From Acidimicrobiia bacterium (lineage in GTDB: Bacteria > Actinomycetota > Acidimicrobiia > Spongiisociales > JAHEDJ01): 64,000 nucleotides of DNA. Every line of letters begins with the position of its first letter. Within the stretch, counting starts at the first letter, position 1. The DNA is taken from positions 4,843 to 68,842 of the forward strand of contig JARGFH010000008.1 in the NCBI GenBank assembly GCA_029210695.1, given 5' to 3'. This document shows, piece by piece, positions 23,193 through 30,603 of this stretch. Made by a program: the position numbers and the translations under genes. Under the pieces are notes generated by a model that made no database searches, had not been told where the DNA came from, and saw only the letters and a program-made list of their open reading frames with translations.

Positions 23193-24002
23193 GTGAAGGT
23201 CTCAATCGTCGACCCGGCCGACCCGCGGATTCTCGACTACATAGGGCTACGCGATCATCAACTGCGGCGGCAGCGGGAGGCGTCCGGAGGCGACCTGGCC
23301 GGCGTGTTCATCGCCGAAGGGGCCCTCGTCGTCGAGCGAGCCCTCCTCGCCGGCTACCGGCTCAAGTCGCTGCTTATCGACGCTACCCGGGGTGAGCCGA
23401 TCCCGGCGATGGTCCCTGCCGACGTTCCCCACTACTTCGCGGGTCCGGACGTCGTACTCGAGGTCACGGGCATCCACCTGCATCGAGGCCTCATCTCCGT
23501 GTTCTACCGCAAACAGCTTCCATACCCGGAGGAGGTGCTGGCGGCGGCGCGCCGCGTCGTTGTACTCGAGAACGTGACGAACCCGACCAACCTCGGAGTC
23601 ATTGTTCGGGCGGCCGCCGGCCTCGGGTTGGATGGACTGCTCCTGGACCCGAGGAGCTGTGATCCCCTTTATCGGAGGGCACTCCGGGTGGCGATGGGAG
23701 AAGCTTTCGCCCTCCCGCATGCGCGGATCAACAGGTTGCCGATGGGGCTCGATCCGGTCCGTAGAGCAGGGTTCCGGATCGCGGCGCTGACACCGGATGC
23801 GTCGGCCATCCCGATTGACCAGCTCGTGATCGAGGCGGATGAGAAGCTCGCCGTCGTGCTCGGCGCAGAGGGGCCGGGACTCACGGAAGAGACACTGGCG
23901 GCGGTCGACGATCGGGTGAGGATTCCGATGCAGAACGGGGTTGATTCGCTCAACGTGGGGTCGGCAGCCGCGGTGGCTTTTTACGCTCTGACGCGGCGCT
24001 GA
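23193..24002 (+). CDS. SpoU/TrmH-family RNA 2'-O-methyltransferase
   Basis: A 269-residue SPOUT methyltransferase. N-terminal substrate-binding domain (FIAEGALVVERALLAGYRL). The C-terminal knot carries motif 1 (NVTNPTNLGVIVRAA), motif 2 (VVLGAEGPGL) and motif 3 (IPMQNGVDSLNVGSAAAVAFY). It transfers methyl from SAM to a ribose in rRNA or tRNA; the exact target is not readable. GTG start. Convergent with the SelW-like gene. Confidence 0.93.
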   Translation: MKVSIVDPADPRILDYIGLRDHQLRRQREASGGDLAGVFIAEGALVVERALLAGYRLKSLLIDATRGEPIPAMVPADVPHYFAGPDVVLEVTGIHLHRGLISVFYRKQLPYPEEVLAAARRVVVLENVTNPTNLGVIVRAAAGLGLDGLLLDPRSCDPLYRRALRVAMGEAFALPHARINRLPMGLDPVRRAGFRIAALTPDASAIPIDQLVIEADEKLAVVLGAEGPGLTEETLAAVDDRVRIPMQNGVDSLNVGSAAAVAFYALTRR

Positions 24003-24009
24003 AAGCTCT

Positions 24010-24031
24010 GCCCTTCCCGTTTTCGGAGGGC
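24010..24031. terminator. Possible bidirectional terminator hairpin
   Basis: GCCCTTCC (24010-24017) and GGAGGGC (24025-24031) form a 7-bp stem with one bulged T around loop CGTTTTC. It lies 8 bp after the methyltransferase stop and 6 bp after the selW-like stop, between convergent genes. Confidence 0.45.
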
Positions 24032-24036
24032 GGACT

Positions 24037-24261
24037 TCAGCGGATCTGGTCGGCGATCTCCTCGTACTCCGCGTGGCGTCCCGTCGCCTTCTTCGAGTAG
24101 ATGAGCTTCCCATCAACGACAACTTCGAACACGCCTCCGCGCGAGGGGATCAGCGTGGCGGCCTGTATCCCTTCCTCGAACTCGGTCAGTATTTGCTCGA
24201 CCATGCGAACCGCACGGTCAAGATACTTTCATTGCGCGCAGTACTCGATGCTGATGATCAT
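24037..24261 (-). CDS. SelW/Rdx-family selenoprotein with in-frame UGA (Sec11)
   Basis: A 74-residue SelT/SelW/SelH (Rdx) thioredoxin-like protein. It reads MIISIEYCAQ, then UGA, then KYLDRAVRMVEQ, and ends at a second TGA (24037-24039). Residues 8-11 form CAQU, exactly the family redox motif CxxU/CxxC, and the later GGVFEVVVDGKLIYSKK (42-58) is the conserved core after the motif. The ATG at 24261 has AGGAGG five bases upstream, and family similarity continues on both sides of the UGA (24229-24231), so this is not a chance stop. A SECIS-like hairpin begins six bases after the UGA. It lies 20 bp behind a histidine kinase gene in the carboxylase operon. Likely a redox protein; the partner is unknown. 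A pseudogene is the alternative if the genome lacks selABC. Confidence 0.85.
24196..24222 (-). promoter_or_regulatory. Bacterial SECIS-like element for the SelW-like gene
   Basis: On the minus strand CUUGACCGUGC and GCAUGGUCGAG pair over 11 bp (two G-U wobbles) around the loop GGUUC. The loop starts 17 nt after the UGA, inside the 16-37 nt range described for bacterial SECIS elements, and has G in its first two positions. The top UGC-GGUUC-GCA resembles the UGC-AGGUCU-GCA tip of the E. coli fdhF SECIS. It would recruit SelB with selenocysteyl-tRNA. Confidence 0.75.
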
Positions 24262-24281
24262 GCGACCTCCTGGCGGCGAGC

Positions 24282-26057
24282 CTAGCTGCAGGAAACCTCA
24301 CGCATCCCTGGTTGCCCGGATGGGAGGGTGAGACGGAAGACCGCTTCCCCGTGTTCTTCGTCGAAGTCGTAGACCAGATCTCCTGCCATTAGTTTGGCCA
24401 GCCGTCGAGACACGGCAAGTCCCAGACCCACCGAAGCGGTAACGCCGGGCTGGTTGTGCGCCCGTGCGTACGGTTCGAAGATCCGCTCGCGGTCTTCGTC
24501 CGGGATTCCCGGGCCATCATCGCGCACTTCGATGGTGACCACGTCCCCGTCGTGCCTGCCGACGATGCGCCGGCTCTTCCCCCCGTAGCGGTGTGCATTG
24601 GCGATGAGGTTTCGAACGATCTGGCGGAACCGGACCGGATCGGCGAGCACCTCGCAGTCGCCGGACGGCCGTGTGATCGAGTTGTCCCATCCGAACTCTG
24701 TGACGATTCGATCGACGTTTTCTGCGACGTTGATTCGCTCGGGGGCGATGCTGATCTGGTTGATGTCGGCACGGGCCGCAACGAGCAGGTCTTCAACGAT
24801 GAACGCCATCTCGCGCGATTGGCCGGCAATGAGTTCGAGCAATTCGGCCCGTTCCGAATCAGAGAACACCATATGTCCATGGGCGAGCTCGCCGGCCAGG
24901 CCGACCACGGCCGTAAGGGGGGTGCGCAATTCGTGGCTCACAGAGGCGATGAACTCGTCCTTCGAGCGGATCAGTTCGGCCATCCCGCCGCGGACGCGCA
25001 TCTCTTCCGTGATGTCGTGGATGGCAATCACCAGCCGGTCGGGATTCGGCCGGAGGCGGAGTGGTCGAATCCATCGCACTTCGATCCAGATCTGGTCACC
25101 GTTGAACGTCACCGTTTCGTAGGTGCACTCGAAGGTCAGCCTGCCTTCGACCATCGCCACTACCTCGGAGACCAGGGCCTCGATGGATGTCTCGTTCACC
25201 CTGGTGGTTGACATGGGGCCAACCAACGCGGCCGGATCGTCGAGCCCGAGTAGCTCGGCGGCCGCAGCATTCACGCGCACGTAGACGATTCCGGCCGCGA
25301 GATCGGTCACCACGGCCGGGTGGGCGAGGAGGTACTTCCCCAGTTCCTGCGGGTCATTGATGCCCAGGTTCTCCACCGCTCGCAATGTCGCGCCCCAGTC
25401 CTGTTCCAGCAGCGCAACAGGGCTGTCTTCAAAGAGCCGGACGTACCGGCTGGCCGATACCAATGTCGCCATCCTGACGGACAGCATGATGAGAGCCACC
25501 AAGCCAAATCCGGTGACGATGGTGGCGGCGGTGGCCACCCTCGCAGCCCCGTCCTCCACCCATAGGAAACCGGCCAGCACGAGCACGGCACCTACCCCGA
25601 TCACATACGCGAGACGCCCTGTGTCGACGAACAGCAGACCAATGCCGCCGATGATGACCAACGCCAAAGATGCCGGCAGCAGCGTGGCGTCGGTGCCGAC
25701 GAGGGGGTAAGTGATCACGACCGAGACGAGCGACAGGATCAAACTCAGGACAACCTTCCGGCCGCCGGACCAGGCCTGCCAGCCGAAGAGCGCCGCCACG
25801 ATTGCCGGCGTTATCGATTCCAAGAGCTGATCGGTACTTCCCGTGAAGAGGCCGGATGCGAAGATTACCAAAGCGGTCAAGGCCGATGCGATGGCCCCCA
25901 TCCGCATCATCGTCAATCGAACGGTGACGATTGCCTCGTGGAAGACGTCGGTCTCCTCGGGGTCGTTCGTGACGAGTGCCCGGAGGGTCTGACGGGTGGC
26001 GCTCAGAGGGCTGTCGGGCCTGGAGAACCGGCCTGAATCCGGTCGACGGTTGCTCAC
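24282..26057 (-). CDS. Membrane sensor histidine kinase with PAS domain
   Basis: A 591-residue sensor kinase. Residues about 50-200 hold five or six membrane helices. A PAS-like domain spans about 205-350 (LFEDSPVALLEQ ... ITEEM). HisKA has the phospho-acceptor His375 in SVSHELRTP. The ATPase domain shows the N box NLIANAHRYGG, G1 DDGPGIPDED and G2 VGLGLAVSRRLA. GTG start overlapping the carboxylase stop by 4 bp. No response regulator is adjacent, so it is an orphan kinase co-transcribed with the carboxylase. The upstream gene and the selenoprotein behind it may share its signal (inference). Confidence 0.9.
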   Translation of the reverse strand: MSNRRPDSGRFSRPDSPLSATRQTLRALVTNDPEETDVFHEAIVTVRLTMMRMGAIASALTALVIFASGLFTGSTDQLLESITPAIVAALFGWQAWSGGRKVVLSLILSLVSVVITYPLVGTDATLLPASLALVIIGGIGLLFVDTGRLAYVIGVGAVLVLAGFLWVEDGAARVATAATIVTGFGLVALIMLSVRMATLVSASRYVRLFEDSPVALLEQDWGATLRAVENLGINDPQELGKYLLAHPAVVTDLAAGIVYVRVNAAAAELLGLDDPAALVGPMSTTRVNETSIEALVSEVVAMVEGRLTFECTYETVTFNGDQIWIEVRWIRPLRLRPNPDRLVIAIHDITEEMRVRGGMAELIRSKDEFIASVSHELRTPLTAVVGLAGELAHGHMVFSDSERAELLELIAGQSREMAFIVEDLLVAARADINQISIAPERINVAENVDRIVTEFGWDNSITRPSGDCEVLADPVRFRQIVRNLIANAHRYGGKSRRIVGRHDGDVVTIEVRDDGPGIPDEDRERIFEPYARAHNQPGVTASVGLGLAVSRRLAKLMAGDLVYDFDEEHGEAVFRLTLPSGQPGMREVSCS

Positions 26058-28042
26058 GGCTCGATCCCAACGTTGGTCACGACGATGAGGATCTGGTCGG
26101 CGAGGACCTGGTCGTCGGGTTCGATCCGGACCGACGTGATTACCCCTCCGGTCGGAGCACGGACAGAATGCTCCATCTTCATTGCCTCAATGACCACCAG
26201 AACGTCGCCCTGGGCGACGCGGTCGCCTTCTCTTGCTGTTACGGCGACCACCCGCCCCGGCATGGGGGACAGCAGCGAGCCCGGCTCTTCATGCGCGGTC
26301 GCCTCTGGAAATCGAGGGAGTTCCAGGAGGGCTGAATGCCCCAGGACGCTGTCGACATACCACGTGTCTTCCTGGCGATGGGTCGTGAAAGCCCGCAGCA
26401 CCCCATCGATTTCGATCTCAACGGACGCGTCCGAGCATGACCGGAGCACGGCCGGTACGGGTTCGCCGCCTAGGCAAACGCTCAAGCCCCGGCGATCGAA
26501 CCGATAACCCATCTCGATGTCTCCGCTTTGTCCCCGGAAGCCGAAGTTCTGGAGCTGCGATGGGCTGTTTCTCCATCCGGAGGGAATCGTCCTGAGAAGC
26601 GCGGCTTCCGACCGGGCGACGTACTGGCCGGCCAGAGCGGCAGCCAAGGCGTGCATCCGCTCTGAAGCCGGATCTGCGAGAGGTGCTCCCAGTTCGGCCG
26701 GGTCGTGCCGGTCGAGGAAGTGGGTGTCGGTCCGGCCGGCCAGGAATTCCGGATGGCGCAGAATTCTGACCAGGAGTTCCCGGTTGGTGTACAGCCCGTG
26801 GATTTGCGCACGGGCCAAAGCTGCCGCCAGGCGCCCGGCTGCCTCATCCCGGGTCGGTGCATACACGACCACCTTGGCCAGTAGCGGGTCGTAGTGAATT
26901 GAGACCTCGGAGCCGTTTTCTACCCCGGTGTCGAGGCGGACGGACGAATCGGGTTCGGTGAGCTCGAATCGGTGGAGCGTACCGGTGGTCGGCAAGAACT
27001 CGTGGCGTGGGTCTTCCGCATATAGGCGTGCTTCGATGGCGTGGCCGCTGGTCGTTGCTCCGATCACCTCCGGGTCGAGCGGGTGGCCCTCGGCGACTCG
27101 GATCTGGGCTCTAACGAGATCGAGGCCCGTCACCATTTCCGTGACCGGATGTTCCACCTGGAGCCGGGTGTTCATCTCGAGGAAGTAGAACTCGCCTTCG
27201 GGATCCAGAAGAAACTCGACCGTCCCGACCCCCAGGTATCCGACGGCTTCAGCGGCCCTGACGGCCGTCTCTCCAAGGGCGGCCCGCCGGACCTGGTCCA
27301 CGGCGGGGGAGGGAGACTCCTCGATGATCTTCTGATGGCGGCGCTGTATCGAACATTCACGTTCAAAGAGGCTCACCACTGTGCCAAACGAATCGCCGAG
27401 GATCTGGACCTCGATGTGGCGCGGTTCCTCGATGTAGCGCTCGAGGAAGAGCGTGTCGTCCCCGAATGCCGACTGCGCTTCACGACGGGCAGCCGCCATG
27501 GACTCCTCGAGTTCGGCGGCGTCCCTGACGATGCGCATGCCTTTCCCGCCGCCACCCGCTGAAGCCTTCACGAGGATCGGATATCCGACCCGCGCCGCAG
27601 TAGCTGCCACCGCCGTCGTGTCGAGCCCGGCAACTTCCTCTCCTGGCGCCACCGGGATGCCGGCGGCCAGCATGAGGCGACGGGCCTCGACCTTCGAGCC
27701 CATGGAGGCGATCGCCGCAGGCGAGGGTCCGATGAAGATGATGCCCGCTTCCGCGCATGCAGTCGCGAAGGCCGCGTTTTCGGCCAGGAACCCGTATCCG
27801 GGGTGGATGGCCTGTGCGCCCGTTTTGAGTGCGGCTTCGATGACCAGATCGCCGCGCAGGTAGGTGTCGGCAGGAGCGGCGCCCGGGAGTTCGATTGCTT
27901 CGTCTGCTTCTGAGACGAAGGGTGCGTGGCGGTCGGCGTCTGAATACACCGCTACCGTCGCGACGCCCATCAAGCGACAGGTCCTGAACACCCGCCGGGC
28001 GATCTCGCCCCGGTTCGCAACCAGAATCTTGCTGAACCGCAT
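26054..28042 (-). CDS. Acyl-CoA carboxylase alpha subunit (biotin carboxylase + BCCP)
   Basis: A 662-residue biotin-dependent carboxylase subunit. The biotin carboxylase part starts MRFSKILVANRGEIARRVFR, with ATP-grasp motifs KASAGGGGKGMRI and the catalytic region RDCS-like ECSIQRRHQK, then EMNTRLQVEHPVTE. The C-terminal biotinyl domain has EAMKMEHSVRAP, Lys being biotinylated. Length and architecture match 3-methylcrotonyl- or propionyl-CoA carboxylase alpha chains. The ATG at 28042 follows GGGAG; the 52-bp palindromic repeat lies just upstream. Beta subunit gene is 79 bp away. Confidence 0.94.
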   Translation of the reverse strand: MRFSKILVANRGEIARRVFRTCRLMGVATVAVYSDADRHAPFVSEADEAIELPGAAPADTYLRGDLVIEAALKTGAQAIHPGYGFLAENAAFATACAEAGIIFIGPSPAAIASMGSKVEARRLMLAAGIPVAPGEEVAGLDTTAVAATAARVGYPILVKASAGGGGKGMRIVRDAAELEESMAAARREAQSAFGDDTLFLERYIEEPRHIEVQILGDSFGTVVSLFERECSIQRRHQKIIEESPSPAVDQVRRAALGETAVRAAEAVGYLGVGTVEFLLDPEGEFYFLEMNTRLQVEHPVTEMVTGLDLVRAQIRVAEGHPLDPEVIGATTSGHAIEARLYAEDPRHEFLPTTGTLHRFELTEPDSSVRLDTGVENGSEVSIHYDPLLAKVVVYAPTRDEAAGRLAAALARAQIHGLYTNRELLVRILRHPEFLAGRTDTHFLDRHDPAELGAPLADPASERMHALAAALAGQYVARSEAALLRTIPSGWRNSPSQLQNFGFRGQSGDIEMGYRFDRRGLSVCLGGEPVPAVLRSCSDASVEIEIDGVLRAFTTHRQEDTWYVDSVLGHSALLELPRFPEATAHEEPGSLLSPMPGRVVAVTAREGDRVAQGDVLVVIEAMKMEHSVRAPTGGVITSVRIEPDDQVLADQILIVVTNVGIEP

Positions 28043-28055
28043 CACGCCCAACTCC

Positions 28056-28121: not shown

Positions 28122-29720
28122 TCACATTCGGAAGACCCCGAACTCACCGGTGCCCTGGACAGGAGCGGAGTGAACCGCGGAGAGGGCGATCCCGAGGACC
28201 GTGCGCGTGTCGCGCGGATCAATGATGCCATCGTCGCGGACGCGGCCGGTCGAGTAGTAGCCGAGTGCTTCTCGCTCGATCTGTTCCTCGATAGCGCGGC
28301 GGCGCTGCTCTTCCTCAGCCTCATCGACCTCCTGCCCGCGGGCGGCCGCCCCGGCCCGGGTGATGATCGACATCACGCCGGCCAGCTGCTCGCCGCCCAT
28401 GACTGCGACCTTGTGACCGGGCCATCCGAACACAAACCGGGGATCGAACGACCGGCCGGACATGCCGTAGTTGCCGGCCCCGTACGACGAACCTGCCATC
28501 AAGGAAATGTGCGGGACCTCGCTGTTGGAGACCGCATTCACCATTTTGGCCCCGTCTTTGATCATCCCGCCCTGCTCGTACTCTTTGCCAACCATGTAGC
28601 CGGTGGTGTTGTGGATGAAAAGGATCGGAGTGTCGTAGCGATTACACAACTGGATGAACTCGGTTGCCTTCTTCGCTTCTTCGCTGAACAGGACTCCGTG
28701 CTGGTTGGCGACGATCCCAACCGGGAAGCCATGGATCGATCCCCAACCGGTAACCAGCGATGTGCCGTAGGTGAACTTGTATTCATCGAAACGTGAGCCG
28801 TCGAGTACGCGGGCCAGCACCTCGCGCATGTCGAACGGAACCTTGAGATCAGCCGAGATGATTCCCAACAGGTCTTCAGGGTCGTGCCGCGGCTCATCCG
28901 CCGGCAGCTTCGGTCCGTAGCCCAGCTTGCTCCAGTTGAGATGGTTGACGATTTCTCTCCCGATGCGGATTGCGTCGTGCTCGTCGGCCGCCAGGTAGTC
29001 GGACAGTCCAGAGATCCGCGAGTGCATCTCGGCCCCGCCGAGTTCCTCGTCGGTTGAATCCTCTCCCGTCGCCATCTTGACCAATGGGGGCCCGCCGAGA
29101 AACACCTTTGCTCGCTCCTTGACCATGACGGCGTAGTCGGCCATGCCGGGGACGTAGGCCCCGCCTGCGGTTGAGTTCCCGAACACGAGAGCGATCGTCG
29201 GGATACCGAGTTTGGACAGCTGAGTCAGGTTTCGGAACCACTTGCCACCGACCAGGAATACGTCAGCCTGCGTCGGGAGATCTGCTCCGCCCGACTCAAC
29301 CAGATTGATGAGCGGGAGCCGGTTCTGGCGGGCGATGTCTTGAATGCGAAGGCTCTTGGGGAGCGATATCGGGTTGGATGAACCCGCCCGGCTCGTGGGG
29401 TCGTTGGCGCTGATGGCGACCTCCACGCCTGAGACGACTCCGATGCCGGTGACGAGGTTGGCTCCAATCGGGAAGTCCGTCCCCCATCCGGCCAGCGAAG
29501 AGAATTCGAGGAACGGCGTGTCCCGATCGAGCAGCAACTCGATTCGCTCCCGTGCCAGGAGCTTGCCACGGCTGTGATGCCGCTCGACGTATTTTGGGCC
29601 ACCACCGAGCCGCGACGTGTCCATGAGTTGCTCGAACTCGGTCAGCCGTTCGACCATGGCTGAACGGTTTGACAGATACTCAGTGGAACGTGTGTCGATC
29701 TTCGATGTCAGCACCGGCAT
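28122..29720 (-). CDS. Acyl-CoA carboxylase beta subunit (carboxyltransferase, MccB-like)
   Basis: A 532-residue carboxyltransferase. The N-terminal half carries GGPKYVERHHSRGKLLARERIE, then NLVESGGADLPTQ and the oxyanion motif FGNSTAGGAYVPGM. The C-terminal half carries GYMVGKEYEQGGMIKDGAKMVNAVSN and SSYGAGNYGMSGRSF. These are characteristic of MCC/geranyl-CoA-type beta chains. With the alpha subunit it carboxylates an enoyl- or acyl-CoA, most likely 3-methylcrotonyl-CoA in leucine breakdown. The ATG at 29720 was chosen because the upstream open frame has no similarity. Diverges from the membrane protein gene. Confidence 0.93.
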   Translation of the reverse strand: MPVLTSKIDTRSTEYLSNRSAMVERLTEFEQLMDTSRLGGGPKYVERHHSRGKLLARERIELLLDRDTPFLEFSSLAGWGTDFPIGANLVTGIGVVSGVEVAISANDPTSRAGSSNPISLPKSLRIQDIARQNRLPLINLVESGGADLPTQADVFLVGGKWFRNLTQLSKLGIPTIALVFGNSTAGGAYVPGMADYAVMVKERAKVFLGGPPLVKMATGEDSTDEELGGAEMHSRISGLSDYLAADEHDAIRIGREIVNHLNWSKLGYGPKLPADEPRHDPEDLLGIISADLKVPFDMREVLARVLDGSRFDEYKFTYGTSLVTGWGSIHGFPVGIVANQHGVLFSEEAKKATEFIQLCNRYDTPILFIHNTTGYMVGKEYEQGGMIKDGAKMVNAVSNSEVPHISLMAGSSYGAGNYGMSGRSFDPRFVFGWPGHKVAVMGGEQLAGVMSIITRAGAAARGQEVDEAEEEQRRRAIEEQIEREALGYYSTGRVRDDGIIDPRDTRTVLGIALSAVHSAPVQGTGEFGVFRM

Positions 29721-29781
29721 TACCGGCAGGTTAGTTGCGGAGAAACGGGGTAGCCGATCCCTGCTGGGTACCATCGCCTTC

Positions 29782-30603
29782 ATGCGATGGACGCGATTCG
29801 TGGGTGCGCTCGGGATGCTGGTTGCCGTCGGCGGCGTTTCGGCGGCGATGGTTGCCTCAGGGCAGCTGCGGGCTGCCGCCGTCGACCGGTCCGCCTCGCT
29901 CGACCGGGCGCTCGCCGCCAGTGGCGAAGCGCTCCGCACGGCCGACGACACGGTCGCCATCGTTGCCTCGATCGTGGACCAGTTGGCCGGCAGCCTGGTG
30001 GCCGTCGAGGATGCCGCGTTCGATTCGATCTCCACCATCGATGGCGCCGAGAGCGGACTACGGAAACTGGCGGAGATCAGCGGAGAGGACCTTCCGCGCA
30101 TCGTCGAGTCGCTGCAAGAGGCAATGCCGGCTCTTATCCAGGTAGCCGACGTCATCGATGGAGCCCTCGGAGCCTTGAGCTTCGTCGGCGTGCCCTACGA
30201 TCCGGACGTGCCGTTCGATGAGTCGCTCACCGGTGTGGCAAGTTCTATCGAGACCCTCCCGGAACAGGTTCGAGCCCAGGCCGTGCTCATCGAAGAGGTT
30301 GCGGACGGACTCGGTGGGCTGGCCGATCAGGCCGGTGATCTGGTCGTCGAAGTCGGCGCGGCACGTGCGCAACTCGCCGACGGACTGGAATTGCTCAATC
30401 AGTATCGAGCGACCACCGCCACCGCGATCGATGCCGTCGAATCCCAGCGGCAACTGCTCAACACACGCATCGAGTCCGAACGTTCGGCAATCTGGTGGAT
30501 GAGTGCGGCGGTCGTAGTCGCCCAGTTCGGCTTGTTCGGCGGCGGAGCCTGGCTGGCGTTTCGCAAGGATGGCCAATCAACACCGGTGGACACCGGCAGC
30601 TAG
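29782..30603 (+). CDS. Predicted membrane protein with extracytoplasmic helical domain
   Basis: A 273-residue protein with a helix near each end (FVGALGMLVAVGGVSAAMVASG, about 6-27; WWMSAAVVVAQFGLFGGGAWLAF near 240-262). In between is an alanine- and acidic-rich helical region (LDRALAASGEALRTADDTVAIVASIVDQLAG). The pattern resembles the sensor part of chemoreceptor-like proteins, but no signalling domain follows. Function unknown. It is divergent from the carboxylase operon and 110 bp before feoB. No ribosome site is visible before the ATG at 29782, so the start is uncertain. Confidence 0.65.
   Translation: MRWTRFVGALGMLVAVGGVSAAMVASGQLRAAAVDRSASLDRALAASGEALRTADDTVAIVASIVDQLAGSLVAVEDAAFDSISTIDGAESGLRKLAEISGEDLPRIVESLQEAMPALIQVADVIDGALGALSFVGVPYDPDVPFDESLTGVASSIETLPEQVRAQAVLIEEVADGLGGLADQAGDLVVEVGAARAQLADGLELLNQYRATTATAIDAVESQRQLLNTRIESERSAIWWMSAAVVVAQFGLFGGGAWLAFRKDGQSTPVDTGS

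Follow-up and report, generated by a model that had tools for sequence, protein, structure and literature searches.

The window, a 64,000-nt stretch of one contig of an Acidimicrobiia genome, carries on its minus strand a 74-residue selW-like gene of the Rdx family (24037..24261) for which selenocysteine (Sec) is predicted at residue 11. A Shine-Dalgarno-like AGGAGG (24266..24271), read directly from the sequence, precedes the ATG start codon (24261-24259) with a 4-nt spacer, and the frame is closed by a TGA stop codon at 24037-24039. Codons 8-11 (TGC GCG CAA TGA; 24229..24240) encode an N-terminal redox motif, C8-A-Q-U11, in which an in-frame UGA (24229..24231) occupies the second redox position. 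With this TGA read as U, the translation is MIISIEYCAQUKYLDRAVRMVEQILTEFEEGIQAATLIPSRGGVFEVVVDGKLIYSKKATGRHAEYEEIADQIR. An earlier note on this DNA had described the AGGAGG, the ATG, the in-frame UGA and a frame open to a true stop, and all were present on the minus strand where the note placed them. As the note had also anticipated for standard gene finding, the frame was absent from the standard-code ORF list (ORFs of ≥80 residues).

The assignment to the SelW family was made with Cys placed at residue 11. The protein matched Pfam Rdx (PF10262) with E=1.3e-22 and 80.2 bits (cut-off 22.6), residues 3-74 aligning to positions 2-73 of the 74-position profile, and scored 64.0 bits against the NCBIfam model CXXU_selWTH (TIGR02174; cut-off 34.2). 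The score against the narrower equivalog NF041051 was 84.3, below the cut-off of 88. Because the Rdx and CXXU_selWTH matches both span residue 11, the similarity runs across the UGA, as had been claimed. A search of the whole genome for Rdx returned a single copy with one TGA inside the match. The terminal UGA, near which there is a hairpin of -13.6 kcal/mol, was considered as a second Sec site and rejected; many relatives have a sense codon at this position and the family homology stops at residue 74, and the terminal UGA was therefore taken as a real stop.

The selW-like gene closes a row of four ORFs on the same strand, with 20 nt between its start and the stop codon of a histidine kinase ORF directly upstream (24282..26057). 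Further upstream are a biotin carboxylase/acyl-CoA carboxylase ORF (26054..28051) and a carboxyltransferase ORF (28122-30155), likewise on the minus strand, while a TrmH/SpoU-like RNA methyltransferase ORF (23193..24002, plus strand) is convergent. The kinase, biotin carboxylase and methyltransferase families were read from the sequence. This layout raises the possibility of a genuine Sec-containing SelW whose function is tied to the upstream carboxylase and kinase genes. The shared strand and short spacing favor such a link, as does the lack of a sigma-70-like promoter in 23900-24500, and the carboxylase-SelW neighborhood recurs in the genus, both with the kinase (L050 and L021) and with the kinase absent (L051, L022 and L023). 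However, the kinase was missing beside SelW in two of the three other same-genus species read, and none of these neighbors was found within the fetched flanks (mostly 1.5 kb) of more distant loci, except for a weak kinase match in L052. Thus, the operon arrangement proposed in the earlier note stands as a same-strand layout, but the linkage was not seen beyond the genus. Since the neighborhood is kept only in the genus, it gives no functional clue for SelW, and we consider a function tied to these genes unlikely.

SECIS-type hairpin and Sec-decoding machinery

Starting 6 nt past the in-frame UGA, we detected a predicted bacterial SECIS-type hairpin (24196..24222, minus strand) with a 12-bp stem and a GU in the apical loop at 24210-24209, which corresponds to nt 19-20 after the UGA (G at nt 19); the predicted fold around it extends to 24227-24188. 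The 53-nt stretch folded had a minimum free energy of -21.6 kcal/mol (z -3.9), with no shuffled sequence equally stable, and the z scores for hairpin stability against shuffles were -3.9 and -4.7. The hairpin was also more stable than synonymous recodings drawn with the codon usage of the window (p=0.002), while stretches further along the gene, excluding the hairpin, gave no signal in the same comparison. Only 14 of 30 relatives surpassed synonymous recoding at p<0.05, and thus in some of them the stability of the hairpin is no greater than expected from the encoded protein alone.

In an alignment of 27 sequences used to assess conservation of the structure, an 8-bp core stem was paired in 93.5% of cells, pairing fell to 17-42% when the stem partner was slid by 1-3 columns, and RNAalifold recovered the same core stem. 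Two-sided changes were seen at three core-stem pairs, and 72 of 500 shuffles attained the observed value for pairs changed on both sides. As the stem hardly varies, the covariation signal is modest. The loop GU was present in all 27 loci. The Arg codon at columns 16-18 was CGT in 25 of the 27, although CGT makes up 12% of the Arg codons in window genes, and in the two sequences with CGC the partner is G instead of A, so that the pair is regained. In other phyla, many loci have an alternative short stem with an AGU or GGU loop at about the same spacing from the UGA. The only Rfam match in the region was a chance snoRNA-like one under the gathering score, and the SECIS call is accordingly based on layout and conservation. 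With a GU in the apical loop and a position within ~40 nt of the UGA, the predicted hairpin is laid out like a bacterial SECIS element.

The genome (a draft assembly of 3.9 Mb in 181 contigs, 97.9% complete) encodes the full Sec-decoding machinery. One tRNA-Sec (selC) scored above the Rfam cut-off (73.3 bits compared to 47; contig C15) and was called tRNA-SeC with anticodon TCA (UCA) by ARAGORN. The selA (433.8 bits) and selB (327.8 bits, pieces summed) genes lie in that order on contig C80 with ~12 nt between them, and selD (398.6 bits) is on contig C20 (L019, G000 C20:13659-14588). SelD is itself a Sec form, with its own in-frame UGA in HGSG-U-ACK (MDLNPRLTQYSHGSG-U-ACK). Several further loci below the cut-off for tRNA-Sec or SelB were taken as ordinary tRNAs and translation factors. 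The sel genes are on contigs other than that of the window, and the association is repeated in same-genus genomes. A search for selA, selB, selD and tRNA-Sec had been set beforehand as a check on the selenoprotein reading, and all four were found.

These observations bear on whether the UGA might instead be read as Trp or by near-cognate suppression. Taken alone, the gene sequence reveals just an intact frame, which would suit this reading as well. However, the genome has a dedicated tRNA-Sec, SelA, SelB and SelD, the SECIS-type hairpin is at the right place, and the non-UGA loci read have Cys at this residue and in no case Trp. We therefore regard decoding as Trp or by near-cognate suppression as highly improbable. 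Sec is very probably inserted at UGA-11, and the proposed route is that SelB and tRNA-Sec would decode codon 11 as selenocysteine after being recruited by the SECIS hairpin immediately downstream, within the coding sequence.

Conservation of the UGA codon among relatives

Of 149 related genomes searched, 81 contained SelW matches (82 in total), and 80 of the 82 had a single TGA with no further stop. The exceptions were a fragment at a contig edge without the UGA site (G021) and a Cys form, KIRYCTQC, in a genome that lacked a selA match and gave no more than a weak selD-like hit (G140). With a single TGA in 80 of the 82 matches, and in the same column in the loci fetched, chance is excluded. 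Across 73 loci, which do not represent 73 independent species given that some (for example, L021 and L050) are apparently the same genome in both collections, the two motif positions were Cys-UGA in 70, UGA-UGA in two and Cys-Cys in one. The UGA is flanked by homology on both sides and aligned with Cys or Sec in homologs, with the UGA column aligning to Cys in the non-UGA loci read. This agrees with the earlier placement of the UGA on the second Cys position of the motif. Five genomes with the UGA form had no selA match (G041, G086, G106, G124 and G136); as these are 69-90% complete and all have selD (G041 partly), missing sequence is the likely cause. We also noted genomes of families f6 and f3, among them G009, G016 and G022, that have selA and selD yet gave no match to SelW. 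There are many such genomes in the order, and other selenoproteins must maintain the Sec trait there.

We then compared the SelW form, scored by the count of stops inside the match, with the presence of selA in 296 genomes of the phylum. Of the 38 genomes with a UGA form, 36 had selA, the two without a selA match being G210 and G158; of the 13 with a Cys form, 11 lacked selA and two had it (Fisher p=1.2e-7, treating genomes as independent of kinship). In G292 and G272, both of genus g182 and both with selA, SelW has no stop; these are apparently Cys forms and a natural Sec/Cys switch. One tentative and, in our judgment, rather doubtful extension is that Sec-SelW is effectively obligatory in this actinobacterial order, such that the gene, where kept, stays in the Sec form without drift to Cys. 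If true, Sec would do something in SelW that Cys cannot, and the lineage would be a good place to learn the role of bacterial SelW.

The same data speak to the possibility that the gene is a pseudogene in which a formerly Cys-containing SelW-like frame acquired a nonsense mutation, as a stop early in the frame of a short gene could suggest. Yet the stop is single, always TGA and confined to one codon in 80 of the 82 matches in relatives, the remaining frame is intact and conserved, and UGA replaces Cys mainly where selA is present. The order-wide conservation of the UGA refutes the pseudogene reading, which we give almost no weight. A sequencing or assembly error at 24229-24231 hiding a true TGC or TGT, which the earlier note had named as a potential refutation and which a draft assembly could allow, has a negligible probability, given that the same TGA is found at this codon in dozens of genomes assembled separately from the genus, the order and across phyla, including public records L050-L053.

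Collectively, the family assignment, the Sec machinery and the UGA conservation agree with the SelW-family selenoprotein reading put forward earlier, and we conclude with high confidence that the product of the window gene is a bacterial SelW-like selenoprotein in the Rdx family, with UGA-11 decoded as Sec.

Predicted fold and proposed redox chemistry

AlphaFold2, run with 28 sequences and with Cys at residue 11 in the model, predicted a thioredoxin-like SelW fold (pLDDT 96.7, pTM 0.84). A Foldseek search of this model against the PDB gave 21 matches at E<=0.001, all SelW-related and at 0.9-1.9 Å, with the best reaching a TM score of up to 0.95 at ~0.9 Å and E values down to 7.9e-9. In the SelW family, the CxxU pair serves as a redox site at which a Se-S bond can form. 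Given the motif and the predicted fold, the mature CxxU site of the window protein would most likely act as a thiol/selenol redox center. Based on established knowledge, the Sec selenolate would react with an oxidized substrate, the Se-S bond would then be resolved by Cys-8, and the site would be reset by a thiol reductant of the cell.

Other probable selenoprotein genes and known SelW proteins

Additional TGA-containing frames were observed elsewhere in the genome. A molybdopterin oxidoreductase (L094; G000 C29:34870-36141) has an in-frame TGA in DSCNRT-U-HAPSVVGL, followed by a GGUCU-loop hairpin, and is probably formate dehydrogenase alpha, another classical selenoprotein. Two thioredoxin-fold/Prx-like proteins with a TGA in VFLRGDW-U-PYC (L103; G000 C55) and FFHMADG-U-PPC (L105; C66) are probable UxxC selenoproteins, and a third AhpC/TSA match containing a TGA was noted (L111). 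Thus, ordinary translation cuts short a real SelW gene and, in the same genome, no fewer than four further probable selenoprotein genes.

In a Verrucomicrobiales MAG, a SelW-like gene (L085:5001-5216 and L086:313-528) has TGA at both motif positions (MEISILY-U-GM-U-NY) and is a putative UxxU double-Sec SelW, unlike the CxxU form that reviews list as the sole form of SelW (including PMC13188914). Near contig ends, the two copies share ~500 identical bases, and they may be one gene.

With 48 genes, SelW-like CxxU proteins formed the largest selenoprotein family of the 2005 Sargasso Sea set (PMC1088965), and they were reported in genomes including Symbiobacterium, placed there under Actinobacteria, with few Cys homologs in Sec-using organisms (PMC1794560). 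They are still listed as having one Sec in a CxxU motif (PMC13188914). The window gene is thus a further member of a selenoprotein family that has been on record in bacteria since 2005, ranks among the most frequent ones of marine metagenomes and has a well-known Sec form. It brings an order-wide set of Sec-SelW genes from an actinobacterial lineage on which the literature searched has little, a single paper there mentioning Acidimicrobiia together with selenocysteine, and the conserved Sec form could help reveal the role of bacterial SelW proteins, called unclear in PMC1088965.

Compared to the bacterial SelW-like selenoproteins described previously (PMC1088965, PMC1794560, PMC13188914), the window gene is alike in the CxxU motif, the single Sec, the size and the Rdx domain, as well as in the bacterial SECIS right after the UGA and the dominance of the Sec form in Sec-decoding bacteria; it differs in sequence and actinobacterial host lineage, while mechanistically nothing differs. 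The SelW-related structures 2FA8 (Agrobacterium), 3DEX (Streptomyces SAV_2001), 2OBK, 2OKA, 2OJL and 2P0G have the same fold (TM 0.85-0.95) and the CxxC/U motif at the same position, with Cys there instead of Sec. Mouse selenoprotein W (2NPB) shares the thioredoxin-like fold (TM 0.74 on the query) and the CxxU motif at only 22% identity. In mammalian selenoprotein W, the eukaryotic SECIS sits in the 3´ UTR, unlike the hairpin of the window gene.
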